From Frigoribacterium sp. CG_9.8 (GTDB lineage: Bacteria > Actinomycetota > Actinomycetes > Actinomycetales > Microbacteriaceae), in the NCBI RefSeq assembly GCF_015751965.1, contig NZ_JADOVH010000001.1, positions 248,001 to 312,000 on the forward strand: DNA of 64,000 nucleotides, read 5' to 3'. The translations under genes were made by a program, and so were the position numbers. Under the pieces are notes generated by a model that was not told the DNA's origin, searched no databases, and worked only from the letters and a program-made list of their open reading frames with translations. Of the stretch, positions 450 through 27,139 are shown piece by piece. How positions within the stretch are numbered: position 1 is the stretch's first letter; every line of letters starts with the position of its first letter.

Positions 450-481
450 GGTGTAACTCTTCCACATGCCAGCGAACGGCC

Positions 482-511
482 GCCCGCAAGCGGAACGTTT
501 CACGGTGCGGG
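482..511 (+). repeat. Junction hairpin motif, copy a
   Basis: Contains CCCGCAAGCGGAAC followed by GTTTCACGG, with flanking arms CCCGC and GCGGG. It sits between two minus-strand GNAT genes and overlaps the last codons of the second. One of about ten copies in the first 10 kb, all with the same + strand orientation. Confidence 0.6.
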
Positions 512-1093
512 TGGCGTCAGGGTGGACCAGACCTCATCGAGTGTGTAGCCAACCGAGGTGTTCGCCGCCAAACTCGCAATATTTTCATCCGATCCTCCCG
601 TTCGGAAGGATTCGGCATGCTCGCTCAGGAGAGCAAGCACGGAGGCTGCTTTGACTGCGGTTGCCAGCCCTTGTCGACGCCATTCTCTCGCAACTACCGT
701 GAAGTCAGTTTCGACCTTTGTTCCGTAGATATCGACAAATGTCATCGCAACAAGGCCGCCGTCCGGGCCGGTGACACCGAATCCTCGACGCGTACTGCTG
801 ACGGTTGCCTGTTCCGGGCCCAGCGCATCATGCAGGGTCGCAATCCCGCCAGGGTAGTCAGCCACTGTCGCGGCATCCAAAGTCAGAATCGCCGCTTTGT
901 CGGAGATTTCCGGCTCACGCACCACACGTTCGCCCCGCAGACATTCGATCAGAGCGGTGAGTCGTTCAGTATCAACATCGACAGCGTTCAGCTCTGCAGC
1001 CCAGGACCGGGCGACAATCCGCCACCCTCGACTCTGAAATTCAGGAAGTCTTGGGTCATTGTCCCGAAGGACCACGTTCTCTGCGATCACCAC
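500..1093 (-). CDS. GNAT family N-acetyltransferase
   Basis: A 197-residue protein with a GNAT acetyl-CoA-binding motif, REWRRQGLATAVK (about residues 135-147), followed by the usual beta-strand/helix and an asparagine-rich segment (SDENIASLAANTSVGY) that matches the 'N-x-x-M/A-x-x-x-N-x-x-x-G-Y/F' end of GNAT domains. The N-terminal half is a degenerate GNAT repeat, so a tandem GNAT fold is possible. Substrate unknown. Transcribed in the same direction as the truncated GNAT gene on its left and divergently from the MOSC gene on its right, with a junction hairpin copy on each side. The start is the ATG opening MVIAENVVLRD. Confidence 0.8.
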   Translation of the reverse strand: MVIAENVVLRDNDPRLPEFQSRGWRIVARSWAAELNAVDVDTERLTALIECLRGERVVREPEISDKAAILTLDAATVADYPGGIATLHDALGPEQATVSSTRRGFGVTGPDGGLVAMTFVDIYGTKVETDFTVVAREWRRQGLATAVKAASVLALLSEHAESFRTGGSDENIASLAANTSVGYTLDEVWSTLTPPAP

Positions 1094-1123
1094 CCCATAC
1101 TCTCAGTCAGCGGCCGCCTGCAG

Positions 1124-1151
1124 TCCCATAAGGGGAACCTTCATTGGCCGC
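1124..1151 (+). repeat. Junction hairpin motif, copy b
   Basis: TCCCATAAGGGGAACCTTCATTGG. Here both the inner AAGG/CCTT and the outer CC/GG pairs are complementary. It lies in the gap between the divergent GNAT and MOSC genes. Confidence 0.6.
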
Positions 1152-1178
1152 TTGAAAGCAACTGGAATGATTGCGTTC

Positions 1179-1727
1179 ATGGTGCAAACACTGTCCGCCG
1201 TCGTTTTATCTGTGAGCCGCGACTCCGTACATAGATTTACGAAGCCATTGTGCAAGGCAATCACGCTGCTGGAAGGGCTTGGTGTCGCGGGAGACGCCCA
1301 CCTGTGGGTGACTGTTCAACACCGGTCGCGAGTGGCCGCAGATCCCACCCAACCGAACCTCCGTCAAGTTCACCTCATTCACTCTGAATTATTTGCAGAG
1401 GTCGCCGCTGTCGGGTTCACTCTTCGACCTGGGGATATGGGCGAGAACGTGACCACCGCCGGTCTTGACCTTTTAGCCTTGCCCCGAGGCGCCCGACTCC
1501 AGATCGGCCCTGATGCTCTGATCGAAGTCACCGGACTGCGAAATCCGTGTGCTCAGATCAATGAATTCGAACCTGGACTTTTGAAGACGATGGTCGGACA
1601 CGATGACAAAGGACGATTAATTCGCAAAGCTGGAATTACGGGAATTGTTCTACACTCCGGAGTTATCCGACCAGGCGACAAAATCACTGTCACCCTCCCG
1701 CAAGAGCCACACCACGCGCTCGATTGA
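1179..1727 (+). CDS. MOSC domain-containing protein
   Basis: MOSC domains are beta-barrel modules related to the C-terminus of molybdenum-cofactor sulfurases; stand-alone versions are thought to carry sulfur or bind the cofactor. The protein has the typical opening LSAVVLSVSRDSVHRFTK, the 'GDAHLWVTVQHRSR' and 'RPGDMGENVTT' segments, and the conserved cysteine in GLRNPCAQIN. Its 182 residues from ATG 1179 fit the small YiiM/MOSC type. In-frame ATG 1167 has a possible GAAAG site; the open frame up to 1059 reads like non-coding sequence. It stands alone between junction hairpin copies b and c. Confidence 0.85.
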   Translation: MVQTLSAVVLSVSRDSVHRFTKPLCKAITLLEGLGVAGDAHLWVTVQHRSRVAADPTQPNLRQVHLIHSELFAEVAAVGFTLRPGDMGENVTTAGLDLLALPRGARLQIGPDALIEVTGLRNPCAQINEFEPGLLKTMVGHDDKGRLIRKAGITGIVLHSGVIRPGDKITVTLPQEPHHALD

Positions 1728-1752
1728 GTGTAAGAGGAATTGGGCCGTTGAA

Positions 1753-1776
1753 GCCCGTAAGCGGAACCTCAATGGG
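1753..1776 (+). repeat. Junction hairpin motif, copy c
   Basis: GCCCGTAAGCGGAACCTCAA followed by TGGG, with CCC/GGG arms. It sits in the short gap between the ends of the convergent MOSC and choloylglycine-hydrolase-like genes. Confidence 0.6.
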
Positions 1777-1808
1777 AATTGCTGCCGGGCGCGCGAGCAG
1801 GTTCCCGG

Positions 1809-2843
1809 TTAGACAAGATCGCGAACGGACTGGATGCGTGCCGGGTCGTCGAACACGGCGATCGAGGCGGCATCAAGGTCGACGCGAGAGAGATCGATGC
1901 GTCGCACCGCGCGGTCGTGCATGGTGTGGAAGTAGACCGAACGGTTGGTCAGATCGCTGACCACGGTGATCTGTGTGGCGCTGACAATGTCGGTCGCTTG
2001 CGTTGATGAATCGGCAGTCATGCCGACCGGGATCGAAAAACTATCGAGGAGCCGGAATGCTTCGAACACGGCATCCAATGCTGTGGGCAAGGGCCTCGCA
2101 CTAGCGGTAAGAGCGACAGCTCGCACGAAACGGGATGGAGGCGTAAAGTCGCCGGGCAAGCCCAAGAGACCCGAACCGCCTCCGAGTGGCGTCAGCGTCA
2201 CACCGCCGATCGTAACGGCTGCAGCGGGAGCCTGGCTGAGGCCGAGATTGTTGCGCAGATTGGTAACGTGCCAATCGTAGGTGGGCGAGTTGGTGATCAC
2301 CCCGGCTATCGGGTTGTGAATGTGCAGCTCACCGTCGCCGATGAACTCGAACACTCGGCTGGAACCCGTCCGGTCGGCGATCTTCCAGTGGAACGGCAGT
2401 GGAGCGCCGCCGAACCGGGGATCGTCGACGCGCACCACCATCGGTGCGTCGGGTCGTGCGAGGGCAGCAAGCACCTCGTCAACCGTTGAGGCGGTCGAAA
2501 GCATCCACCGCATGAAGTCGCCGACCGACAGCGTGCGGTGCACCTCGGCCGGATCGAATTCGCGATGCGAAGCGAATCCGGGAAAGTAGTACATGCCGAC
2601 ATAGAGGCCGTTTTCGTTGAGGCCGTCGGGGCCGTAATCCTGCCCGTACGCGGTGATCGACGTATACCCGTACTTCCCTGTCCACTGCATACCGTTCGCT
2701 CCCTGCGGGGTAAGCGCGGTGAACCGGGTGTGTCGCGGCACAACGATGATCCGATCGTGGTGAGCGTCGCTGAGCGCCCATTCAACGGTTCGTCCGACAA
2801 TCGCGGAGCTGTCTGTCGCTGTCAAAGAGATGGCGGTGCACAT
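1809..2843 (-). CDS. Choloylglycine hydrolase-family (linear amide C-N hydrolase) protein
   Basis: An N-terminal-nucleophile hydrolase related to bile salt hydrolase and penicillin V acylase. Starting at ATG 2843 the protein reads MCTAISL, so removal of the initiator methionine exposes Cys2, the catalytic nucleophile of the family. Other family features are the early arginine in the 'IVGRTVEW' strand and the GLNENGLYVG segment, where BSH/PVA enzymes carry a conserved asparagine. The 344 residues match the family length. No signal peptide is visible, so it is probably cytoplasmic. Natural substrates in soil or aquatic actinobacteria are unclear; acyl-amides such as N-acyl homoserine lactones or penicillin V are possible. 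The open frame extends to 2912 but the Cys2 rule decides the start. Confidence 0.85.
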   Translation of the reverse strand: MCTAISLTATDSSAIVGRTVEWALSDAHHDRIIVVPRHTRFTALTPQGANGMQWTGKYGYTSITAYGQDYGPDGLNENGLYVGMYYFPGFASHREFDPAEVHRTLSVGDFMRWMLSTASTVDEVLAALARPDAPMVVRVDDPRFGGAPLPFHWKIADRTGSSRVFEFIGDGELHIHNPIAGVITNSPTYDWHVTNLRNNLGLSQAPAAAVTIGGVTLTPLGGGSGLLGLPGDFTPPSRFVRAVALTASARPLPTALDAVFEAFRLLDSFSIPVGMTADSSTQATDIVSATQITVVSDLTNRSVYFHTMHDRAVRRIDLSRVDLDAASIAVFDDPARIQSVRDLV

Positions 2844-2944
2844 GCCGAGATCGCATCGCGGATGCCCACGGGGGCGGCGACATCCCCCTGTGTCAGCAAC
2901 GCGCCCTGACAAATTTCAGGTGATAGCAGCCACGGTGCCTCACC

Positions 2945-2973
2945 TTCCCGCAAACGGGACCTCGACCGGACGC
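2945..2973 (+). repeat. Junction hairpin motif, copy d
   Basis: TTCCCGCAAACGGGACCTCG followed by ACCGGACGC. A diverged copy between the choloylglycine-hydrolase-like gene and the recombinase. A partial inverted look-alike (GCTTACGGG) lies near 3043. Confidence 0.5.
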
Positions 2974-3096
2974 GAAGTTAGGTCCTCCAGGAGGGCCCAA
3001 TTGTTGGGGTTCGCAGCCGAGGGAGGGTGCCCGCGTAGAGGCCGCTTACGGGATTGTTCTTGACCCCTGGACCGGCCGAAGTGCACCGTTCCAGTT

Positions 3097-3678
3097 ATGA
3101 ATGAATTTCTGATCGGATACGCACGCGTATCCACGAACGAGCAAGATCTCACCGCCCAACAAAACGCCCTGGAAGCTCTTGGCGTTCGATCGAACCTGAT
3201 CTACACCGACCACGGACTCACCGGCACCAACCGGGCACGCCCCGGACTCCGCGAAGCTCTCGCCGCCTGCCGAAACGGCGACACTCTCGTCGTCGCCAAA
3301 CTCGACAGGCTGGCCCGTTCGCTTCGGGATGCCAAAGACATCATCGACGAACTCACCATCAAGGGCGTCAAACTCAGCATCGGCGGATCCGTGCACGATC
3401 CGACCGACCCGGTCGGCCGTCTGCTGTTCAACGTCCTGGCAATGGTGGCAGAGTTCGAATCCGACCTCATCCGCGCCCGAACTCGAGAAGGAATGCAAGT
3501 AGCCAAAGCGAAAGGCCACCTTCGCGGCAAACAACCGAAGTTATCGACAGCCCAGCAACGCCACCTGATGGAAGTACACCGCGCGGGGACGCATTCCACG
3601 GCTGAGCTCGCTGAGCTGTTCAACGTCGCCCGGTCCACTGTCTACCGCACCGTTCAACGACAATCCGTCAACTCCTGA
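3097..3678 (+). CDS. Small serine recombinase (resolvase/invertase family)
   Basis: A 193-residue protein in the Tn3-resolvase/DNA-invertase family. The N-terminal catalytic domain opens with IGYARVSTNEQ, in which Ser12 is the predicted nucleophile. YTDHGLTGTNRARPGL and KLDRLARS carry the conserved basic and acidic residues; AEFESDLIRARTREGM is the dimerisation helix, and GTHSTAELAELFNVARSTVYRTV is the C-terminal helix-turn-helix. Such enzymes cut and rejoin DNA at short inversely repeated sites by a phosphoserine intermediate. No transposase is nearby, so it is an orphan rather than part of a visible Tn3 element. It sits inside the array of junction hairpin motifs, copies d and e flanking it, which may be its sites (inference). 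Confidence 0.9.
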   Translation: MNEFLIGYARVSTNEQDLTAQQNALEALGVRSNLIYTDHGLTGTNRARPGLREALAACRNGDTLVVAKLDRLARSLRDAKDIIDELTIKGVKLSIGGSVHDPTDPVGRLLFNVLAMVAEFESDLIRARTREGMQVAKAKGHLRGKQPKLSTAQQRHLMEVHRAGTHSTAELAELFNVARSTVYRTVQRQSVNS

Positions 3679-3774
3679 AGCACACACTCGCCGGCCCCCG
3701 TTGTCGGGCCAAGCAACTCAGCAACGGGAGAGCCGAACCCAGAGCCCGGCAGTAGTCATTCCGATGGTCGAGCC

Positions 3775-3803
3775 GTGTCACAGGGGGACTTCTTGCGGGA
3801 CAC
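3775..3803 (+). repeat. Junction hairpin motif, copy e
   Basis: GTGTCACAGGGGGACTTCTT followed by GCGGGACAC. The outer arms are GTGTC and GACAC, fully complementary though different from the CCCG/CGGG arms of other copies. It lies between the recombinase and yoeB. Confidence 0.6.
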
Positions 3804-3815
3804 GTAGACCTCGGG

Positions 3816-4076
3816 TCAGTGGTGGTCGCGAGCTTGCAGGATGATGATGCGGTCATCAGTGACGTAGTAGACCAGCCGATTCGTGTCGTCGATGCGGCGA
3901 GACCACGCGCCAGCAAGGATGTGTTTGAGGGGCTCAGGTTTGCCGATCCCCGCGAACGGATCGCGCAGCGCGTCAAAGACTAGCTGGTTGATGCGCTTGA
4001 GAGTCTTGCGGTCCTGAGTTTGCCAGTAGATGTAGTCTTCCCGCCCATTCGGGTCGAAGGCGACAGTCCGACTCAT
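3816..4076 (-). CDS. yoeB: Txe/YoeB-family ribosome-dependent mRNA endonuclease toxin
   Basis: YoeB toxins bind the 70S ribosome and cleave mRNA in the A site. The 86-residue protein has the family's opening (AFDPNGREDYIYWQTQDRKT), the 'RINQLVFDALRDPFAGIGKPEPLKH' segment and a C-terminal ILQARDHH in place of the usual ACRYHY/ARFHY; the terminal His is the residue used in catalysis in this family. Its ATG overlaps the antitoxin stop codon by 4 bases, the normal coupling of yefM-yoeB pairs. The toxin is silenced by the YefM-like antitoxin made upstream. Confidence 0.92.
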   Translation of the reverse strand: MSRTVAFDPNGREDYIYWQTQDRKTLKRINQLVFDALRDPFAGIGKPEPLKHILAGAWSRRIDDTNRLVYYVTDDRIIILQARDHH

Positions 4077-4324
4077 TCAGTTGTGAGGTCGTGCTGCTCG
4101 AACTCTCCGCGCCGCACCCGCTCGATCGCCGTGAGTAACCGCTCGGCATTCGCGGGGTTCCGAAGCAGGTAGGCAGTTTCAGTTATCGCGTCGTAGTCGT
4201 CTTTCGACAGGATCACTGCGTTTCCGTGCCGGGAGACAACCTCGACAACGGTGTGGTCATCGTTGACCTGCTGGATCAGCCCGAACAGACTCTTTCGTGC
4301 TTCAGTCGCGGTTATTGCCGACAT
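4073..4324 (-). CDS. yefM: YefM/Phd-family antitoxin
   Basis: An 83-residue antitoxin with the Phd/YefM N-terminal DNA-binding fold (MSAITATEARKSLFGLIQQV) and the HGNAVILSKDDYDAITETAYLL core, ending in a charged tail that wraps the toxin. The open frame extends upstream to 4534, but ATG 4324 is preceded by a strong GAGGAGG ribosome-binding site at the right distance, so the longer reading is rejected. It represses its own operon and neutralises YoeB. A candidate operator lies just upstream. Confidence 0.92.
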   Translation of the reverse strand: MSAITATEARKSLFGLIQQVNDDHTVVEVVSRHGNAVILSKDDYDAITETAYLLRNPANAERLLTAIERVRRGEFEQHDLTTE

Positions 4325-4340
4325 GATCGCCTCCTCGTAA

Positions 4341-4360
4341 TAGTACTTGATAGCGTACCA
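4341..4360. promoter_or_regulatory. Candidate yefM operator
   Basis: TAGTAC and GTACCA half-sites in inverted orientation, 8 bases apart, directly upstream of the yefM ribosome-binding site. YefM-YoeB complexes bind short palindromes with a GTAC-containing core in other bacteria. The assignment is by position and symmetry only. Confidence 0.4.
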
Positions 4361-4420
4361 CTGAAATGCGCGGAGGAAGAGGTGCAGCACGGCCGTGAGG
4401 ATCGACCAGTACGGTACCTC

Positions 4421-4448
4421 GTGCCCGTAAGGGGGAGGTGGGCCGGGC
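4421..4448 (+). repeat. Junction hairpin motif, copy f
   Basis: GTGCCCGTAAGGGGGAGGTG followed by GGCCGGGC. Arms GCCCG/CGGGC separated by 16 bases. It lies between yefM and the amine oxidase gene. Confidence 0.55.
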
Positions 4449-4472
4449 CGGTTTCGGAAAGGGAGCAGCCCG

Positions 4473-5855
4473 TCAGGGCGTGAACAGGGCCACGACGTGG
4501 AGCGCGGCGGCGTGACCACTGTGGACCGCGCCATCCATATAGCCCTCGTTGACGGTCGTCAGGTCGGAACCGGCCAGGAATACCCGGTGTCCCGGAACTG
4601 AAACCGGAAGCACGAGCTCCTCGAGCCCCGGCGGCGAGTACGGCCCGTACCCACCTCGCACGTGCGGTTCCTCGGCCCAGAGCGCCTCGTGAATCGCCAG
4701 GGGTGCCGCCGCCGCTGCACCGAGTGCCGAAACGGCGGCAGCCACGAGAACGCGGTGACGTTCGTCGACGGGCATCCGCGAAACCCGGTGCACGGCGTCT
4801 CCGACGACGAAAGCGTGGAGTACGCCTCCGCGGCCTCCGTCGGGCGTGCTCTCGATGATCGAGGCGACGTCACCATCGGCAAGAATGACGGATCCGGAGC
4901 GTCCGACACTCTGCCAAAAGGGTTCGGGATACTCCAGTGCCGCTTTAATGACCGCACCCATGGGTCGTCGCTGCAGCCCTTGGTCCAGCCAACCGGGAAG
5001 GGCCGGAGCCCATCGAATGCGCGTCACGGCTGCCGACGGCACCGCGAGCACCGCTGCTCTCGCATCGACGGTGAAATCGCCTCCGAAGTCAGTGACCTGT
5101 GAGTCAGCTGATCCCGTGACGTGTACACGCACGACATCACTGCCCGCGCTGGCCCCGGGTCGACGTTCGATGAAGACCGCCTGCTGTCCCAGGCGAACCG
5201 GTTCGGTCAACACCCCCGCCAGCGCGTGGGCGATTCGCTCGGGCCCGCCCGCCACCCGATCCGTCTCGCTGTCCCGCAGCAGCCTGTCGCTGGCGAGATC
5301 CGAATATAGATCGAGCAGTGCTGCCGCGCTCACCTGGGACGGTTCGGCGCAGAGCTCTGTGCGCACGACGTATGCGAGCGCTTGCTCCACCGGCGCACTG
5401 ACGTGTGCGCGCAGCCAACCCTGCGCTGTCTGAGCATCCAGAGCCAGCAGCGCAGCCTGATCCGTCTTGAGACTGGCGGCGAGTCGATCCAGAGTTGCGG
5501 TTGCATCCAGGATGGCGGCCCGGGTCGCCATCGACTCCGGAATGCGGCCAGCGAATGGGGTCGCAGTGCCGCCCTCCACGAACACGTTCAAGCCGCTGGT
5601 CGAGACCGGTACGAGATCGATGCCCAGTTCGTGCACCAGCGAGCGCAACTCGTGATGCTCGGGTCCGACCCACTGCGCTCCAAGTTCCGCTGATCCTCCC
5701 GTGGACAGCATGACGTCACGCACCCGGCCACCGATACGGTCACTCGCCTCCACGACGACGACGGCGATACCCCGACGCGTCAGATCGTAGGCAGCCGTGA
5801 GCCCGGCAAGACCAGCCCCGATCACGACCACATCGGTGGTGAGGTTTTCCTGCAC
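4473..5855 (-). CDS. Flavin-containing amine oxidase
   Basis: A 460-residue FAD enzyme of the monoamine/polyamine oxidase family. The N-terminus has the Rossmann motif VVVIGAGLAGLTAAYDL (GxGxxG), then the EASDRIGGR and GAQWVGPEH segments typical of MAO-type oxidases. The C-terminus has the second FAD-contacting block, VFLAGSDLTTVNEGYMDGAVHSG. It would oxidise an amine (a putrescine- or tyramine-like substrate is possible) to an aldehyde with release of ammonia and hydrogen peroxide. No signal peptide is seen. It is a single gene with no metabolic partners nearby; junction hairpin copy f lies just past its 3' end. Confidence 0.9.
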   Translation of the reverse strand: MQENLTTDVVVIGAGLAGLTAAYDLTRRGIAVVVVEASDRIGGRVRDVMLSTGGSAELGAQWVGPEHHELRSLVHELGIDLVPVSTSGLNVFVEGGTATPFAGRIPESMATRAAILDATATLDRLAASLKTDQAALLALDAQTAQGWLRAHVSAPVEQALAYVVRTELCAEPSQVSAAALLDLYSDLASDRLLRDSETDRVAGGPERIAHALAGVLTEPVRLGQQAVFIERRPGASAGSDVVRVHVTGSADSQVTDFGGDFTVDARAAVLAVPSAAVTRIRWAPALPGWLDQGLQRRPMGAVIKAALEYPEPFWQSVGRSGSVILADGDVASIIESTPDGGRGGVLHAFVVGDAVHRVSRMPVDERHRVLVAAAVSALGAAAAAPLAIHEALWAEEPHVRGGYGPYSPPGLEELVLPVSVPGHRVFLAGSDLTTVNEGYMDGAVHSGHAAALHVVALFTP

Positions 5856-5946
5856 GTCTGTTCTCCTCTGTAGGCCTGGGTGTCGCCGGCGGGTAAAGGG
5901 TCACTGTCGAAAATACCGCATGCCGGATAGCAGGGATCGGCCGCAG

Positions 5947-6096
5947 CTACTCGCCGGTGGCGTGGGGTCGCCCGAGGTGGCCGAAGATGGCGCCCAGCAA
6001 GGCAATCAACGCGGGCACGGAGATCTGCAGCGGCGCGCCGATGGCGGCTCCCTCGCCGATCAGAGCGATCGCGAGCAGGCCGCGGCCACCCCTCAT
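5947..6096 (-). CDS. Possible 49-residue membrane peptide
   Basis: From ATG 6096 the frame gives a hydrophobic peptide (LLAIALIGEGAAIG and ISVPALIALLGAIFG segments) flanked by basic residues, which could form a membrane hairpin. The only ribosome-binding hint is GAGCT about 8 bases upstream. It lies on the same strand as, and upstream of, the amine oxidase gene. No family is recognised, and chance hydrophobic frames are common in GC-rich DNA. Confidence 0.25.
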   Translation of the reverse strand: MRGGRGLLAIALIGEGAAIGAPLQISVPALIALLGAIFGHLGRPHATGE

Positions 6097-6208
6097 AGGG
6101 TGGAGCTCGCTGCTGCTCGGAGGATCGTCGTAAAGGTGGCCCGATATTGAGCCCAACAACCGGGGCGCCTAACCCGCGAGCTCAAGGATGCCCTTTCGTC
6201 TCACCGGT

Positions 6209-6250
6209 GTCTCGAAACCCATGGGTTGCGAGGCACTTCGGTTACGAGAC
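6209..6250. repeat. Inverted repeat in the Nramp upstream region
   Basis: GTCTCGAAACC and GGTTACGAGAC form an 11-bp inverted repeat with one mismatch and a 20-base loop; the loop also contains the palindrome ACCCATGGGT. It could be a terminator-like hairpin, an operator or a recombination relic. Confidence 0.45.
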
Positions 6251-6287
6251 AGCGCACAGCGCCAACTCGAGCTGTGCAAAGCCGATG

Positions 6288-6317
6288 CCGCCCGCAAGCC
6301 GAACCTTCACCGGGCGG
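6288..6317 (+). repeat. Junction hairpin motif, copy g
   Basis: CCGCCCGCAAGCCGAACCTT followed by CACCGGGCGG. The best-formed copy: perfect 7-bp arms CCGCCCG/CGGGCGG around a 16-base loop holding AAG...CTT. Confidence 0.65.
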
Positions 6318-6556
6318 AATTTCACATGCCCGGAAGGGTGTGATCGGGGCCTGATTTCGAACCGATCAGGGGCTCGTAAGCGAATGATCTAATGGCCGTT
6401 TTTGACGTAGATACTGCTCCGGAGCCGTATAGGGGATTTCTGAACGAAGTTTCAGTTGTTAGCTCCCATTTTTCGTGTCGTGGCCGAACGGATAGTGGGA
6501 TGCTTATGACAGTCACCGGGTGTGTGGTTTCCGCGGACGAAGAACGGATTCTGCTT

Positions 6557-7927
6557 ATGGGCCCGAACCAGGTTTCAGAGAATCTGCCGCAGGAAGTTCG
6601 TCGCGGCGGGAGCGGATCTCCGTCGCAGACACCGATGAAACGATCCCCGATCGCACGGTTCTTCGCGGTGCTCGGTCCGGGGTTGGTGACCGGTGCTGCT
6701 GATGACGATCCGTCGGGTATCGCGACCTATTCGCAGGCTGGCGCCATTTATGGGACCAGCATGCTGTGGACGGTCCCGTTAACGCTTCCGCTAATGATGG
6801 TCACCCAGGAAATCTGCGACCGGATGGCCCTAGCGACGGGCGAGAGTCTTGGTGCGCTGATCCGTCGCCGGTTCAGCCGCGGGCCACTGATCGCCATCGG
6901 CATTCTTCTGGTGGCGCTGATTGCTGCGAACTGTTTCAACTTGGCGGCGGACCTTAACGCCATCGGACAGGGCATGAACCTCCTCCACGCGGGACCGCCA
7001 TGGTTATGGAGTATCATCGCCGGCGTAGCGATTACCATCGCGGTCATCTTCGGGTCACTTGAGGTGATCGGGAAAATCTTCAAATGGTTGTGCATGGTCC
7101 TCATCGTTTACATCGGGGTCCTCTTTGTTTCCCATGTCAACTGGGGACAGGTCGGGCAGGGCCTGGTGGGTGCACAGTTGAAATTCACACCCGCTTACCT
7201 CGGTCTTGTTGTCGGAGTGCTGGGCACCACCATCTCCCCCTACATGTTCTTTTGGCAATCCGCGCAACGGATCGAAGAAATGCGCGCCGAAGACCGTGGC
7301 GGCAACACAGCACCCGCGCTGAAAGATCGGCCACCAGCTGAAGCCAAACGGCGACTGCGCAATGGGAAGGTAGACGTATTCACGGGGATGGCGTTCTCAG
7401 TGCTGATCATGTTCGCCATCATCGCCTCCTCCGCAGCAACCCTCGGCGCCCATCACAAGGCGGTCACCTCCGCAGCCCAAGCGGCCCAGGCATTGGAACC
7501 CATCGCGGGCAGCTACGCCGGGATCCTCTTTGCCCTCGGATTCATCGGCTCCGGAGTGCTCGCCGTCCCTGTCCTGGCCGCATCCGGGGCCGCAGGAATG
7601 GCTGGTTTACTCAACAAAAATTGGGGACTGGAGCGCAGCCCCCGACGTGCGCCCCTCTTCTACGGACTGCTGGGCGTTGGCATTGTTGCCGGAACCATCC
7701 TCAGCGTCGTGAGCACCAATCCCATCGGATTGCTGGTCCTCAGCGCAATCGTCAACGGCATCGCAGCCGGACCCTTCTTGGTGGTGATCATGCTCATCTC
7801 CCGCAACCGAAAAATCATGGGCGGTTACCGCAACGGGCGACTGGCCGCAACACTCGGCTGGGCCACCGCGGGCATCATGTGCATTGCCGGAGCCTATGGG
7901 GTGTGGTTCACCCTTGTCGGCGGCTAA
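6557..7927 (+). CDS. Nramp-family divalent metal transporter with non-canonical metal site
   Basis: A polytopic membrane protein of the Nramp superfamily, about 11 membrane segments, which moves divalent cations with protons. TM1 reads GAADDDPSGIATYSQAGA where canonical Mn/Fe Nramps have DPGN, and the TM6 equivalent reads TTISPYMFFWQ where canonical proteins have MPH. It therefore belongs to an Nramp-related subgroup whose metal ligands differ; Mg2+ or another ion is possible. A charged cytoplasmic insert (EEMRAEDRGGNTAPALKDRPP) follows TM6. ATG 6557 has ACGGA 8 bases upstream and is preferred; ATG 6635 and the open frame from 6392 are alternatives. The DUF1345 gene follows 100 bases downstream on the same strand. 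Confidence 0.85.
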   Translation: MGPNQVSENLPQEVRRGGSGSPSQTPMKRSPIARFFAVLGPGLVTGAADDDPSGIATYSQAGAIYGTSMLWTVPLTLPLMMVTQEICDRMALATGESLGALIRRRFSRGPLIAIGILLVALIAANCFNLAADLNAIGQGMNLLHAGPPWLWSIIAGVAITIAVIFGSLEVIGKIFKWLCMVLIVYIGVLFVSHVNWGQVGQGLVGAQLKFTPAYLGLVVGVLGTTISPYMFFWQSAQRIEEMRAEDRGGNTAPALKDRPPAEAKRRLRNGKVDVFTGMAFSVLIMFAIIASSAATLGAHHKAVTSAAQAAQALEPIAGSYAGILFALGFIGSGVLAVPVLAASGAAGMAGLLNKNWGLERSPRRAPLFYGLLGVGIVAGTILSVVSTNPIGLLVLSAIVNGIAAGPFLVVIMLISRNRKIMGGYRNGRLAATLGWATAGIMCIAGAYGVWFTLVGG

Positions 7928-8026
7928 CGGCCGCCGGTGTGTGTGCGTTTCCTAGACCCCACACAAAGAGAAGCGCACCTGCCACCGCACCCAAATCTGT
8001 GCAAGGCAAAAGGTATTGGAGAAGTA

Positions 8027-8692
8027 ATGGCACACTCGGACCGCATCCAGTCCACCACCCGCCGTCCGAACGTGAACCGGTGGCGTGTTGCCGCGATGCT
8101 GGCCGGCCTCATCGTTGTCGGGCTCGGCGTGGGGCTGACCGGCAACTGGGGCTATGCCCCGACGGCCGGGTGGGCCACTGCGTGCCTGATCTATCTGATC
8201 GCGGTGTGGCGAAGTGTGCACGACCTCGACGCGGCCGCGACATCCAAAAACGCCACCCGCGAAGACCCCAAACGCACCCTCAGCGACTTGCTCTTCGTCA
8301 TCGCGAGCATCGCAAGCCTCTTCGCCCTAGTCTTCGTCTTCGGGCAGGCCAAAGCAGCAACGGGACTTGGCAAAGATGTGATCGCCGGACTCGCGTTCCT
8401 CAGCGTGGTACTGTCCTGGCTGCTGGTTCACACCATTTACACCCTCCGCTACGCCGAGCTGTACTACAGCGGCGGCGACGGCGGAATCGACTTCAACCAG
8501 CCGGAACCACCGAAATACACGGACTTCGCCTACCTGTCCTTCACGGTCGGCATGACCTTCCAAGTCTCAGACACCAACATTCAAGACAGCCTCATCCGAT
8601 CGACAATCCTGCGTCACATGTTCTTGGCGTACTTATTCGGATCCGTCATCATCGCCGCCACCGTCAACCTCGTCGCCGGACTCGGAAACTAA
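8027..8692 (+). CDS. DUF1345-family membrane protein
   Basis: A 221-residue protein with five or so hydrophobic segments. It carries the family's typical central block (LLVHTIYTLRYAELYY) and the motif PKYTDFAYLSFTVGMTFQVSDT near the C-terminus, which is diagnostic for DUF1345. Function unknown. ATG 8027 has a good GGAGAAG site two bases upstream of the optimum, so the longer frame from 7937 is rejected. It lies 100 bases after the Nramp-type gene on the same strand and may be cotranscribed. Confidence 0.85.
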   Translation: MAHSDRIQSTTRRPNVNRWRVAAMLAGLIVVGLGVGLTGNWGYAPTAGWATACLIYLIAVWRSVHDLDAAATSKNATREDPKRTLSDLLFVIASIASLFALVFVFGQAKAATGLGKDVIAGLAFLSVVLSWLLVHTIYTLRYAELYYSGGDGGIDFNQPEPPKYTDFAYLSFTVGMTFQVSDTNIQDSLIRSTILRHMFLAYLFGSVIIAATVNLVAGLGN

Positions 8693-8851
8693 AACGGGAC
8701 ACAATCCTTCCGCCCCAGCAACGATTGCGTATCGCGAAAACGCGCCAGATGACAGCGGACAGTTGATGTTTTGACATGCGCGGGTAACACACCCATCGGG
8801 CGACTGGGCAGGTTCGATTTCCTGAGCTCACCCCCACCACGCCCCACCGGG

Positions 8852-8879
8852 CGCCCGTCAGCGGGACGTTCAGCGACGC
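8852..8879 (+). repeat. Junction hairpin motif, copy j
   Basis: CGCCCGTCAGCGGGACGTTC followed by AGCGACGC. Core preserved, arms weaker than in copies e-h. Confidence 0.45.
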
Positions 8880-8920
8880 AGCTCGAGCGCGAAAGCAGCC
8901 GGCGCGATACGGCCGACGAG

Positions 8921-8951
8921 GTGTGTCACAGGGGAACAATCAGCGGGCTGT
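8921..8951 (+). repeat. Junction hairpin motif, copy h
   Basis: GTGTGTCACAGGGGAACAAT followed by CAGCGGGCTGTG. Arms CACAG/CTGTG with 16 bases between them. The left flank (CGACGAG) resembles that of copy i. Confidence 0.6.
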
Positions 8952-9071
8952 GCCATTGCGATGAATGCGAGTTGGACGGTGTTGCTGTGGTGTCTGGCCA
9001 CTGAATTTGGAATCGTCGTCGCACCCCTCGGGACCTGCGCTTTCCCAAATGGAAACCAGCCACTCGGGTGG

Positions 9072-9881
9072 CTAGTCCAGCCGCCCATAGCGCGCCCGGG
9101 CGCCGAGGTATAGTCCATACGCGATCAGTCCCACCCCAACGGCAATGAGGATGGTCACGCCGAATGGCAACGAGGCGAGTGATTTGAGGGCGCCATCCAT
9201 GCCACTCGCCTTTGACGTGTCGAGTGTGAATGCGGCTGCCACAAAGAGAATGCCAACCACCGCAAGAATGATTCCTTTCGCGATGTAGCCGACCACACCC
9301 AGCAGTACCACTACTCGCCCTAGTGAGCCCGACGGCGGGGTGAGGTCTTTCTCGAACTTCTTGGTCACACCCCGCACCACGAAGAACACGCCGATGCTAA
9401 CAATTGCAAGCCCAACCACCAACAGCACGAACACCCCGCCGGGCTTTGCGAGGAGTTGATCGCTCGCGCTCTTGCTGCTGCTAGCCGAACTCTTGGACCC
9501 CCCGAGCGCGAAAGTCAGCGCAGTGACTCCGACCGCCACGTACACCACCGCCTTGCCGAACTCCGACAACCGCTTGCCCCAACGCTTCTTCGCGTCAGAA
9601 TCTCGAACGAGAAACCCCGACACGATCTGCCAGAGCCCCAATGCAAACAGGCCGACCGTGATCACCCAGAGGAGCGCAATACCAACGGGGTTCGAGGCAA
9701 GCTCCGAAAGCGCACCTGACTGGTCGGCTTCTGCCCCGCCGCCGCCCACCGCCACCGAGATCGCGATGGCACCGATCAGCACGTGCAAGAGACCGTTCAC
9801 CGCGTAGCCGAGCCGGGCGAGCAACTTCAGTGCTGTGCTATTCCGGGCCGCGCCAGCGACCTTCGTCGCAGATCCGCTCAT
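9072..9881 (-). CDS. DUF1206-family membrane protein
   Basis: A 269-residue integral membrane protein made of three tandem two-helix repeats, each with a glycine/tyrosine opening (ARLGYAVNGLLHVLIGAIA, EFGKAVVYVAVGVTAL, VVGYIAKGIILAVVGILF). This triple repeat is characteristic of DUF1206. Function unknown. A Ser/Lys-rich linker (GSKSSASSSKSASDQ) follows the fourth helix. It is a single gene, convergent with DUF1345 and divergent from the downstream oxidoreductase. Confidence 0.88.
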   Translation of the reverse strand: MSGSATKVAGAARNSTALKLLARLGYAVNGLLHVLIGAIAISVAVGGGGAEADQSGALSELASNPVGIALLWVITVGLFALGLWQIVSGFLVRDSDAKKRWGKRLSEFGKAVVYVAVGVTALTFALGGSKSSASSSKSASDQLLAKPGGVFVLLVVGLAIVSIGVFFVVRGVTKKFEKDLTPPSGSLGRVVVLLGVVGYIAKGIILAVVGILFVAAAFTLDTSKASGMDGALKSLASLPFGVTILIAVGVGLIAYGLYLGARARYGRLD

Positions 9882-10456
9882 CCCCCCACCCTACCGAGTC
9901 CTCTCTCTAGGGCGTAAGAGCGCGGTGAACGAGGTGTGTCACAAGGGAACCTCCACCGGGCACTTTCCCGGCCTAAATCCTGACTTTCCACCAGAAAGAA
10001 AACGGCACGAAATCAGGGACGGTCCACAATAGTCAGAAGAATCATCTTTTCACCCGACTTCGGGGGGAAGCACGCATCGATAACGGCTCGGAGGGGGCTG
10101 GGTGCCCGCAGGAGGGATGGTGACCGGATACTCCCTCCATCGCCCGGATCGCCAAGCTGACCTTTCCCAGGCGTCTCACATAGCCCGCCCGGATGGAATT
10201 CTCACTCGGGTACCTCATACGCAACAGCGTGCGGACTCGATCGTGCTGCTTGCGGCGAACGCCGTTCACGGCTGGTTTCACGATTTGAACAATTCGGATG
10301 GCGAAAAGTGCCGTTTCGAGGAGATGGGGTCTGCAACAAAGGCCTCATCGGAAGCGCCCATTTCAGACAACCCCGACAACAGAGAATGAGGGGCGAAGGT
10401 CTCGCGCTGCATGCCGCGCCGAAATTGCGGCTGGTGCCCTGCTAGATTCTCGTCTC
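9882..10456. other. 575-bp gap between DUF1206 and the Gfo/Idh/MocA gene
   Basis: Contains junction hairpin copy i near its left end. Short frames on both strands (10042-10281 minus, 10102-10389 plus) have no supporting motif or ribosome-binding site; they could be decayed coding sequence. The frame from 10298 is open into the oxidoreductase, but its first 53 codons do not resemble the family. Confidence 0.5.
9934..9963 (+). repeat. Junction hairpin motif, copy i
   Basis: GTGTGTCACAAGGGAACCTC followed by CACCGGGCAC. Outer GTG/CAC arms. The last copy seen moving rightward in the window. Confidence 0.6.
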
Positions 10457-11479
10457 ATGACTCTTGATCCGGCACCGGTGACCCCCGTACCGAACCCGCT
10501 CACGCCGATCCGCTGGGGAATCCTCGGTACCGGTTTCATCGCGCACCTCCAGACTGCCGACTTGCTTGGTTGTGGCTTCACAGTGGCCGCCGTCGGGTCA
10601 CGATCTCAGGGCACAGCGGATGCTTTCGCCGCGGAGTTTGCTATCCCCACCGCGCACGGAAGCTACGAGGCGCTGGTGGCTGACCCTGACGTCGATGCGA
10701 TCTACATTTCGACTCCCCATCCGTTTCATGCCGAGAATGCGTTGCTCGCATTAGGGGCGGGCAAACACGTGCTGGTCGAAAAGGCATTCACCCTCACCGC
10801 GCGTGAGGCTCTGGCGGTTGTCGAGGCGGGCGAGGCTGCCGGACTGGTGGTGATGGAGGCGATGTGGACCCGTTTTCTGCCGCACATGCTGCGCATCCGC
10901 GAGATCATCGCCGCAGGAACCCTCGGCGACGTTCGCACGCTCATCGCCGACCATAACCAGGACTTGCCCAAAGATCCGCTGCACCGCCTGAATAATCCCG
11001 CCCTCGGAGGCGGCGCGCTGCTCGATCTCGGCATCTACCCTGTGTCGTTCGCATTCGACCTTTTCGGCACGCCGACGGCGGTGGCGGCGCTGGCGACGAA
11101 GACCGCGACCGGAGTTGACCGGCAGACCGCGATTCTGCTCGGGTTCGACGACGGTCGCCAAGCCGTGCTGCATTCGGCTCTCGACACTGCGGGATCGAAC
11201 ACTGCGGTGATCATCGGCACCGAAGGGCGGATCGAGGTGGATGCCGTCTGGTACTCGCCCACTACTTTCACGGTCTTCGATGCGGCTGGCCAGGTGATCG
11301 AGCGCTTCGACACCCCGGTCGCGCATCGGGGAATGCAGTTTCAGGCGTGGGAGTTCGAGCGCCGAATCCGCGAGGGCGACCACAGCCCTGCCATGCTTCC
11401 CGCCCGGGAAAGTGTGCGCGTCATGGAGACTCTCGACGCGGTGCGCGCCCAGATCGGGCTCTCATACCCCGGCGAATAG
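10457..11479 (+). CDS. Gfo/Idh/MocA-family NAD(P)-dependent oxidoreductase
   Basis: A 340-residue sugar/inositol-type dehydrogenase. The N-terminal Rossmann fold has IRWGILGTGFIAHLQTADL; the central block DAIYISTPHPFHAENALLALGAGKHVLVEKAFTLT-like region has the family's EK motif with Ala in place of Pro. The C-terminal half (LGGGALLDLGIYPVSFAFDLFG) is the substrate-binding sheet. The substrate is not identifiable. ATG 10457 lies in a TAGATT-containing context without a ribosome-binding site, consistent with a leaderless transcript. Confidence 0.88.
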   Translation: MTLDPAPVTPVPNPLTPIRWGILGTGFIAHLQTADLLGCGFTVAAVGSRSQGTADAFAAEFAIPTAHGSYEALVADPDVDAIYISTPHPFHAENALLALGAGKHVLVEKAFTLTAREALAVVEAGEAAGLVVMEAMWTRFLPHMLRIREIIAAGTLGDVRTLIADHNQDLPKDPLHRLNNPALGGGALLDLGIYPVSFAFDLFGTPTAVAALATKTATGVDRQTAILLGFDDGRQAVLHSALDTAGSNTAVIIGTEGRIEVDAVWYSPTTFTVFDAAGQVIERFDTPVAHRGMQFQAWEFERRIREGDHSPAMLPARESVRVMETLDAVRAQIGLSYPGE

Positions 11480-26880: not shown

Positions 26881-26971
26881 CCGGTGGTCTCAAATCTTCG
26901 TGTCGAAGACGGACTCCGGGCCGATGTCGACGGTCGCCGACAGCGTTCGTGCGCGCTCGAAAGCGAACACG

Positions 26972-27125
26972 CGTGCTACCTCTCATCCGGACTGAGAAGC
27001 TCTTTCGAGCCTCATTACCGTCGGTCTCGGAATTTCACCGAGTCAACCGCTACTTCCGATTCTTCGAAAGGCGCGGGTCGCGGACTATAACCGCCGGTTC
27101 GGACTTTCACCGACCCCGGAGCACG
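26972..27125 (-). ncRNA. FMN riboswitch (RFN element)
   Basis: On the minus strand the leader between the promoter and ribD carries the RFN conserved blocks in order: GGGGTCGGTGAAAGTCCG, ACCGGCGGTTATAGTCCGCG, CGGTTGACTCGGTGAAATTC, GACCGACGGTAATG and CAGTCCGGATGAGAGG. These are closed by the P1 helix CGTGCT/AGCACG. Binding of FMN would shut down transcription or translation of the rib operon. About 90 bases separate it from the ribD start. Confidence 0.96.
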
Positions 27126-27139
27126 TATTAATGTTTCTC

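Follow-up and report, generated by a model that had tools for sequence, protein, structure and literature searches.

A probable gene-cassette array bounded by res-like sites around a small serine recombinase in Frigoribacterium sp. CG_9.8

We analysed a window of 64,000 nucleotides from Frigoribacterium sp. CG_9.8, bases 248001-312000 of contig C1 of its 2.85-Mb genome (G000). In its first 10 kb, genes of unrelated function are separated by copies of a short site with dyad symmetry, and one of these genes encodes a small serine recombinase (Table 1). The genes point both ways between the sites, and no transposase was found among the ten window proteins scanned. A first-pass annotation of this DNA had listed ten copies of the site, all on the plus strand and at gene junctions, and all ten are present. 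Seven of them score 17.3-34.9 bits with our final matrix; those at 3775, 8921 and 9934 form a divergent class with TGTCA half-sites, score below 10 bits each and are placed by their spacing and, for 3775, by one exchange boundary. An eleventh site, with GA at its centre, lies at 10099 (17.4 bits). The same annotation had seen no copy between 10 and 64 kb, which is nearly right for the window, where the final matrix gives no match above 10 bits from 10.2 to 64 kb, but not for the genome, whose contig C7 carries a larger array.

Table 1. Features of the window array and the tyrosine-recombinase open reading frames discussed in the text (window positions unless a contig or locus is named)
Feature	Position	Strand	Remarks
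Core site 1	477..510	+	centre AA, 24.9 bits
Cassette gene	500..1093	-	197 aa, no Pfam or NCBIfam match
Core site 2	1119..1152	+	centre AA, 17.4 bits
Cassette gene, MOSC-domain protein	1059..1727	+	frame as listed; start probably after site 2
Core site 3	1748..1781	+	centre AA; left edge of shared hydrolase cassette
Shared hydrolase cassette	1765..2958		common to G108 (other genus), 98.8%, site centre to site centre
Cassette gene, choloylglycine hydrolase family (CBAH)	1809..2912	-
Core site 4	2941..2974	+	centre GA; res site I-like, upstream of recombinase
Second imperfect dyad	3027..3052		about 81 bp past site 4; candidate accessory res subsite, read by eye
Small serine recombinase	3097..3678	+	193 aa, Resolvase + HTH_7
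Core site 5	3770..3803	+	divergent TGTCA class; exchange boundary of recombinase cassette
Cassette gene, YoeB-like toxin	3816..4076	-
Cassette gene, Phd/YefM-like antitoxin	4076..4324	-
Core site 6	4418..4451	+	17.3 bits
Cassette gene, flavin amine oxidase	4473..5855	-
Core site 7	6285..6318	+	centre AA, 34.9 bits
Cassette gene, Nramp transporter	6392..7927	+
Cassette gene, DUF1345 protein	7937..8692	+
Core site 8	8848..8881	+	centre GA; opens 70-bp module
Core site 9	8918..8951	+	TGTCA class; second site of 70-bp module
Cassette gene, DUF1206 protein	9072..9881	-
Core site 10	9931..9964	+	TGTCA class; stretch of about 75 bp after site, by eye also at C7:17826 and C7:21558
Core site 11	10099..10132	+	centre GA then T, 17.4 bits; last site before conserved flank at 10478
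Tyrosine integrase	G000 C1:234516-235664 (L041:6516-7664)		383 aa; about 13 kb (12.8 kb) upstream of window array; nearest such frame
Tyrosine-recombinase-like frame	G108 C1:794535-795398 (L117:9535-10398)		288 aa

The core of the site is a 26-bp dyad, GCCCGnnnnnSG-RA-CSnnnnnCGGGC, in which GCCCGnnnnnSG and its complement stand as inverted copies around positions 17-18 (12 + 2 + 12 bp). Over 79 strong sites the column counts are GCCCGYAAGSSGRACSNYSANCGGR; G16 and A18 are invariant, G27 is present in 77 of the 79 and R17 is mixed. The final matrix was trained iteratively on the fetched regions themselves; over 1.37 Mb it finds 217 sites above 16 bits compared with four in the reversed sequence. 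In the window it finds eight above 14 bits, while 40 first-order Markov sequences gave a mean of 0.2 and a maximum of 2. The first-pass annotation had taken the copies for a conserved structure, a hairpin whose outer arms covary, and this part had to be given up. With the 3' arms dealt among the sites, 789.0 +/- 11.3 of 1379 pairs are expected and 797 were observed (P=0.25, n=197), and a smaller shuffle of the arms gave 108.3 +/- 6.0 against 110 observed (n=31, two rows being three bases out of register). The arms of one site pair no better than those of different sites, and a covarying hairpin with compensatory changes is not supported; the arms within a copy are complementary because the consensus has dyad symmetry.

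A search of the same genome with a matrix built from the ten copies located the larger array at C7:17.8-41 kb and further sites at C7:91-98 kb. The strong sites of this genome share one orientation within each cluster, and the ten proteins scanned in the C7 array include PemK- and YoeB-like toxins, a phosphodiesterase, ABC and FtsX proteins, a BLUF sensor and an HxlR regulator. A 34-column sequence model (E<=1) returned 31 matches in G000 and, among 29 relatives, 27 in G005, 25 in G007, 12 in G003 and 0-9 in the other 26. In a draw of 249 Microbacteriaceae genomes, 36 have one match or more at E<=0.02, including 15 with at least two; Cryobacterium sp. PH29-G1 (G030) has 22 at E<=0.3. Arrays recur in the same genome and in related bacteria, in several Microbacteriaceae genera and on plasmids of Pseudarthrobacter, Curtobacterium and Rhodococcus, and matches are concentrated in a few arrays. 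Among 13 plasmid loci, with the palindromic sites scored on both strands, L159, L160 and L161 are clear arrays (18, 13 and 17 matches versus 4, 0 and 0 in the reversed sequence); L167 has 5 versus 3, and the other nine have 1-3 matches. Annotation of four actinobacterial plasmid loci, picked for having several sites, puts 27 of 28 sites between genes, where 8.1 are expected. Of 140 pairs of adjacent sites (above 18 bits, less than 6 kb between them), 138 point the same way and 2 do not, and a spacing of 81-83 bp between sites occurs 21 times. A strict composite pattern matched three stretches in 84,980 genomes, but it caught only four modules in the loci examined and is no measure of distribution; its Streptomyces stretch is probably due to chance, since about 1.8 stretches are expected. 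The two opposite-facing pairs of strong neighbours are at G108 C1:2975129/2975226 (convergent, 97 bp) and G164 C24:92642/96302 (divergent, about 3.7 kb). Locus L161 is the Rhodococcus opacus plasmid pROB01, outside Microbacteriaceae and Micrococcaceae, where a recombinase copy is surrounded by array-like sites, some with AA and some with AT at the centre.

Comparison of the fetched regions showed that blocks of shared DNA tend to end at the sites. A site is no more than 25 bp away for 44 of the 212 distinct block ends; 300 random shifts gave 2.7 +/- 1.8 such ends and never more than 8. The regions compared had been fetched because they bear sites, and the blocks include insertion sequence elements. 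The hydrolase cassette (1765-2958) is 98.8% identical over 1,194 bp to DNA of G108, a genome of another genus (group g95), and both flanks are unrelated. The identity begins at the AACC that follows GG and stops directly after GGGAC, and beyond the site itself little sequence is common at the edges. The recombinase and toxin-antitoxin cassettes are neighbours in G007 and separated in G000, and two blocks that adjoin on the small contig C2 of G005 stand separately in G000. The genes flanking the array (C1 238.3 kb on the left, window 10478 on the right) are 20 kb apart in G000 versus 3.2-3.6 kb in G003, G005 and G007, and the array interval is therefore about 17 kb longer in G000 than in these three; six relatives had been fetched, and the left gene was unmatched in the other three (G004, G008, G012). 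The earlier suggestion that the copies mark boundaries of gene gain or loss is in line with these cassettes, which are common to several genomes and have their edges on site centres, and with the flank spacing, which is not kept in three of the six relatives. A 3.3-kb piece occurs twice at 99.6% identity in Cryobacterium sp. PH29-G1, on C7 (from 6226) and on C25 (from 376307), with left halves that differ at a site.

The point of exchange was mapped on 30 boundaries with a site in both copies, 17 of them left-shared and 13 right-shared, 22 between genomes and eight within one. In left-shared pairs the agreement is good up to and including position 19 and falls close to the level of random pairs at position 20 and beyond. 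In right-shared pairs it is close to that level to the left of position 17 and for the most part higher to the right. Position 17, which is variable in general (background 0.51), is common to the partners in both groups (0.88 and 0.92). The sequences thereby suggest an overlap at about positions 17-19, at the dyad centre. Serine recombinases have a 2-bp overlap, and tyrosine recombinases require a spacer of 6-8 bp that is identical between the partners, so that a switch on about three central bases fits the former and is too short for the latter. The central dinucleotide is AA or GA here and, around more distantly related enzymes, AT or GT: with columns 17-18 neutralised, regions chosen by their sites have mainly AA (114) and GA (87), and 20 neighbourhoods of recombinase homologues have AT 26, GT 12, GA 12 and AA 10. 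On the recombinase tree, central A/T changes six times versus 8.7 when shuffled, with 31 of 500 shuffles as low, a weak signal that was not used. The hydrolase cassette has AA at its left edge and GA at its right, and of 22 recurrent modules made of two sites about 82 bp apart, 19 open with a GA site and close with an AA site. G005 has a run of three sites at 82-bp intervals (C1:801372, 801454 and 801536); the central copy combines a left half of type B with a right half of type A, the arrangement expected if the module was duplicated by site-specific exchange.

Resolvase and HTH_7 domains were identified in the window recombinase, whose Ser12 lies within a YARVS motif. Its nearest solved enzymes by sequence are Gin, gamma-delta and Tn3, the best-scoring chains being Gin-type invertases. 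Members of the family occur in or near the arrays of G000, G007, G030, G033 (frame-broken), G108 (two) and G113, and beside lone sites in G161. In 20 further homologue neighbourhoods, which are part of all matches, 19 contain at least one site above 14 bits, and the total is 53 sites versus one in the reversed sequence. Among 39 copies with an intact N-terminal motif, 24 have a site (>13 bits, <=230 bp) upstream, in 18 cases at -155 to -175 from the YARVS motif, and random 230-bp windows of the own locus match the observed score in 0-9% of draws for these 24. Eight motif-less copies were excluded from this count, including four on alphaproteobacterial plasmids that carry a single strong site at -138 to -140 of the gene and no array in the 20-25 kb fetched. 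Such a layout is the one described in PMC7157771, where res site I precedes the resolvase gene. A Tn3 transposase adjoins the recombinase copy in Acidiphilium and TniA/TniB-like genes are its neighbours in Sphingobium and Acetobacter; no transposition gene was seen beside the copy at the Pseudosulfitobacter locus. Degenerate dyads, at most candidates for accessory subsites II and III, were seen by eye between site I and the reading frame. The recombinase is enriched in site-bearing genomes (14 of 36 versus 32 of 213, P=0.0015; 249 genomes, the same draw being assumed for both searches) and is present in eight of the 15 genomes with two or more sites versus 38 of 234 (P=0.0018). The link to a small serine recombinase and its co-occurrence with the sites, which the first-pass annotation had anticipated, thus find support in a family that is embedded in arrays and often has a site upstream.

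Two further traces of the recombinase gene were noted. A relict of 50 amino acids with 82% identity lies far from the array at G000 C1:717386-717535 (L007), and at G009 C162:9136-9587 (L085) a recombinase copy starts at a core-like site in its own coding sequence with about 43 N-terminal residues missing, possibly truncated by recombination at a fortuitous site.

Given these comparisons, we read the first 10 kb of the window as a cassette array in which res sites appear to have been multiplied into cassette boundaries, an integron analogue that would run on a serine resolvase; from the sequences we give this a probability of about 0.82. The site is best read as the site-I half of a res of TnpR/TniR type, with the 193-amino-acid recombinase as the presumed local family member. 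The earlier impression of a cassette array and of gene capture linked to a serine recombinase is well supported by comparison, which shows exchange on the central bases, the single orientation of the sites and the linkage of enzyme and site; the action of the enzyme on the arrays and the integration step we infer. The recombinase would pair two sites, cut both at the central dinucleotide and rejoin half-sites from different cassettes. Between direct repeats the outcome would be excision of a single cassette or several; with the two sites on separate molecules, cassettes would be inserted or swapped. The asymmetric dinucleotide would hold the sites in one orientation. The recombinase may itself travel as a cassette, thereby spreading the system, and arrays without a close homologue may be remnants or be served by another copy. 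Because natural resolvases strongly prefer intramolecular resolution, insertion may be rare, depend on accessory sites or proceed via double exchange between arrays.

A gene cassette can thus extend from an AA site to a GA site, and the 82-bp module connects the two kinds of site. Were recombination limited to sites with the same dinucleotide, a module could not be lost through its own two sites, and gene plus module would together be what moves, playing the part that an open reading frame plus attC plays in integrons. The arrays might then be an integron counterpart built on a serine resolvase and using a two-address code (AA and GA), born from a transposon res site and shuffling genes across Actinobacteria, a proposal to which we give somewhat less than even odds. 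The two non-crossing address classes are a hypothesis only, because the modules share ancestry.

Tyrosine recombinases offer the main alternatives. The array could be an integron or a CALIN-like array (cluster of attC sites lacking integron-integrases), with a tyrosine integrase working on attC and the serine recombinase as a passenger cassette. Single-gene cassettes, toxin-antitoxin cargo, unidirectional tandem sites and a recombinase gene that is itself bounded by sites would all suit an integron, and in G108 a divergent 288-amino-acid tyrosine-recombinase-like frame lies 677 bp beyond the first site of the array, in an integrase-like position. The R'' and R' boxes of attC read RYYYAAC and GTTRRRY. 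The consensus of the 79 sites holds no such pair, there is no arm covariation and the switch is confined to about 3 bp at the dyad centre. The source genome has six PF00589 matches, all of them outside the window array and contig C7. The IntI model check covered G000, G030 and G108 only among the array genomes, and there the four tyrosine-recombinase frames nearest to sites reach 38 bits at best versus the integron-integrase cut-off of 265; no NCBIfam model matches the G108 frame. We consider an integron highly improbable on these grounds. Another enzyme might act on the sites, XerC/XerD as in pdif modules or a recombinase elsewhere in the genome, which would make the window recombinase mere cargo. 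Seven of the 15 multi-site genomes lack a close homologue, and tyrosine-recombinase matches occur in 13 of 13 genus genomes, some of them near sites. This explanation is unlikely, given that about three central bases are common across boundaries where a tyrosine spacer takes 6-8 bp and that the recombinase gene is preceded by the same site in four alphaproteobacterial relatives.

Alternatively, the arrays could be debris of repeated res-hunting transposition of Tn402/Tn5053 type or of cointegrate resolution, with no active cassette system. Some recombinase relatives do lie near TniB/TniQ, TniA/TniB-like or Tn3 transposase genes, and res-hunting transposons are described in the available parts of PMC7765201 and PMC12217951. 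No transposase is among the ten window proteins, however, and single-gene blocks that end on site centres need no transposition, which leaves debris as a very unlikely explanation. That the sites are intergenic would also suit an ordinary repeat (REP-like, that is, of the repetitive extragenic palindromic kind, a terminator or a regulator site), whose cassette look would be coincidence or the result of homologous recombination between repeats. Such a repeat can hardly be credited with an orientation that is strict whatever the gene direction, a base-level switch at the centre, cassette edges with little in common beyond the site, as in the hydrolase cassette, and matches clustered in a few arrays.

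Several observations weigh against the serine-resolvase array, the position of the G108 frame among them. The G030 array has a tyrosine-recombinase frame 3.7 kb away, and another stands 4.1 kb from a lone site on C6. The 30 boundaries, some with common members, and the 82-bp modules are not independent observations, and three of the 30 boundaries differ at position 17. The link between enzyme and sites is significant but loose: 22 of the 36 site-bearing genomes have no close homologue, and the seven multi-site genomes mentioned above (G005, G094, G100, G102, G149, G164 and G269) have none at E<=1e-40, the best in G005 being 44% identical. Conversely, 32 of 46 recombinase-bearing genomes have no site match, partly as the model expects a central A, the neighbourhood in G089 has no site above 14 bits, and a good upstream site is missing at 15 of the 39 recombinase copies and at five of the 13 plasmid loci. 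Resolution at known res sites takes place within one molecule and requires accessory subsites, and it does not account for the integration of a free cassette.

Integrons, with a tyrosine integrase and folded sites, are the textbook bacterial gene-capture platform. The arrays described here have a serine and not a tyrosine recombinase, and a 26-bp dyad with a short central overlap in place of a folded attC; no IntI-type integrase was found in the three genomes checked for it and no attC among the sites, and no attI platform was recognised. A site lies upstream of the recombinase, yet the recombinase itself stands inside the arrays. Comparison does show a tandem array of mobile cassettes. In the available text of PMC8618304, integrons are alike in having tandem single-gene or toxin-antitoxin cassettes, one site per junction and exchange between genomes; the word "serine" is absent from that text. 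The arrays are integron-like in working but fail the defining features tested, the enzyme and the site. With the resolvase-res systems of Tn3 and Tn402/Tn5053 they share the enzyme family and its domains, a dyad site I upstream of the resolvase gene and, by comparison, a crossover at a central dinucleotide; no linked transposase was found among the ten window proteins scanned. Those transposons have one res each for cointegrate resolution, whereas here long arrays of unrelated genes are delimited by tens of copies of site I. By enzyme and site the arrays are of resolvase-res type, but use as an array boundary is not the known role of that system. The nearest precedent is an exchange of toxin-antitoxin genes between two transposons, proposed in the available part of PMC7157771 to have occurred at the AT dinucleotide of res site I.

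The serine DNA invertases (Gin, Hin) come close through the Gin-type chains, which score best against the recombinase, and through 26-bp sites that also have a central dinucleotide. They work on inverted sites with an enhancer, whereas here direct repeats extend over kilobases (138 direct versus two opposite neighbours). Sites of XerC/XerD are tyrosine sites with other spacing and overlap, their half-sites being set around a 6-bp spacer, and only about 3 bp are common at our exchange boundaries. The pdif modules of Acinetobacter, as presented in the available parts of PMC12907356 and PMC7399989, likewise are gene modules between short recombinase sites, and XER modules together with Tn3 transposons are noted on Antarctic Arthrobacter plasmids in that of PMC6305408. 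Within open-access full-text literature, surveyed by titles and abstract starts with subscription papers and preprints outside the scope, no description of such arrays was recognised. Their parts (a resolvase, res site I and toxin-antitoxin exchange at res site I) are known. If our reading is true, a convergent platform of serine resolvase and res exists and cassette capture has evolved more than once; it would account for gene turnover in Microbacteriaceae and on actinobacterial plasmids, and it offers short directional sites that can be tested in vitro.

Elsewhere in the window, a scan against Rfam brought one model alone to its gathering score, a flavin mononucleotide (FMN) riboswitch at 26970-27127 on the minus strand (82 bits).

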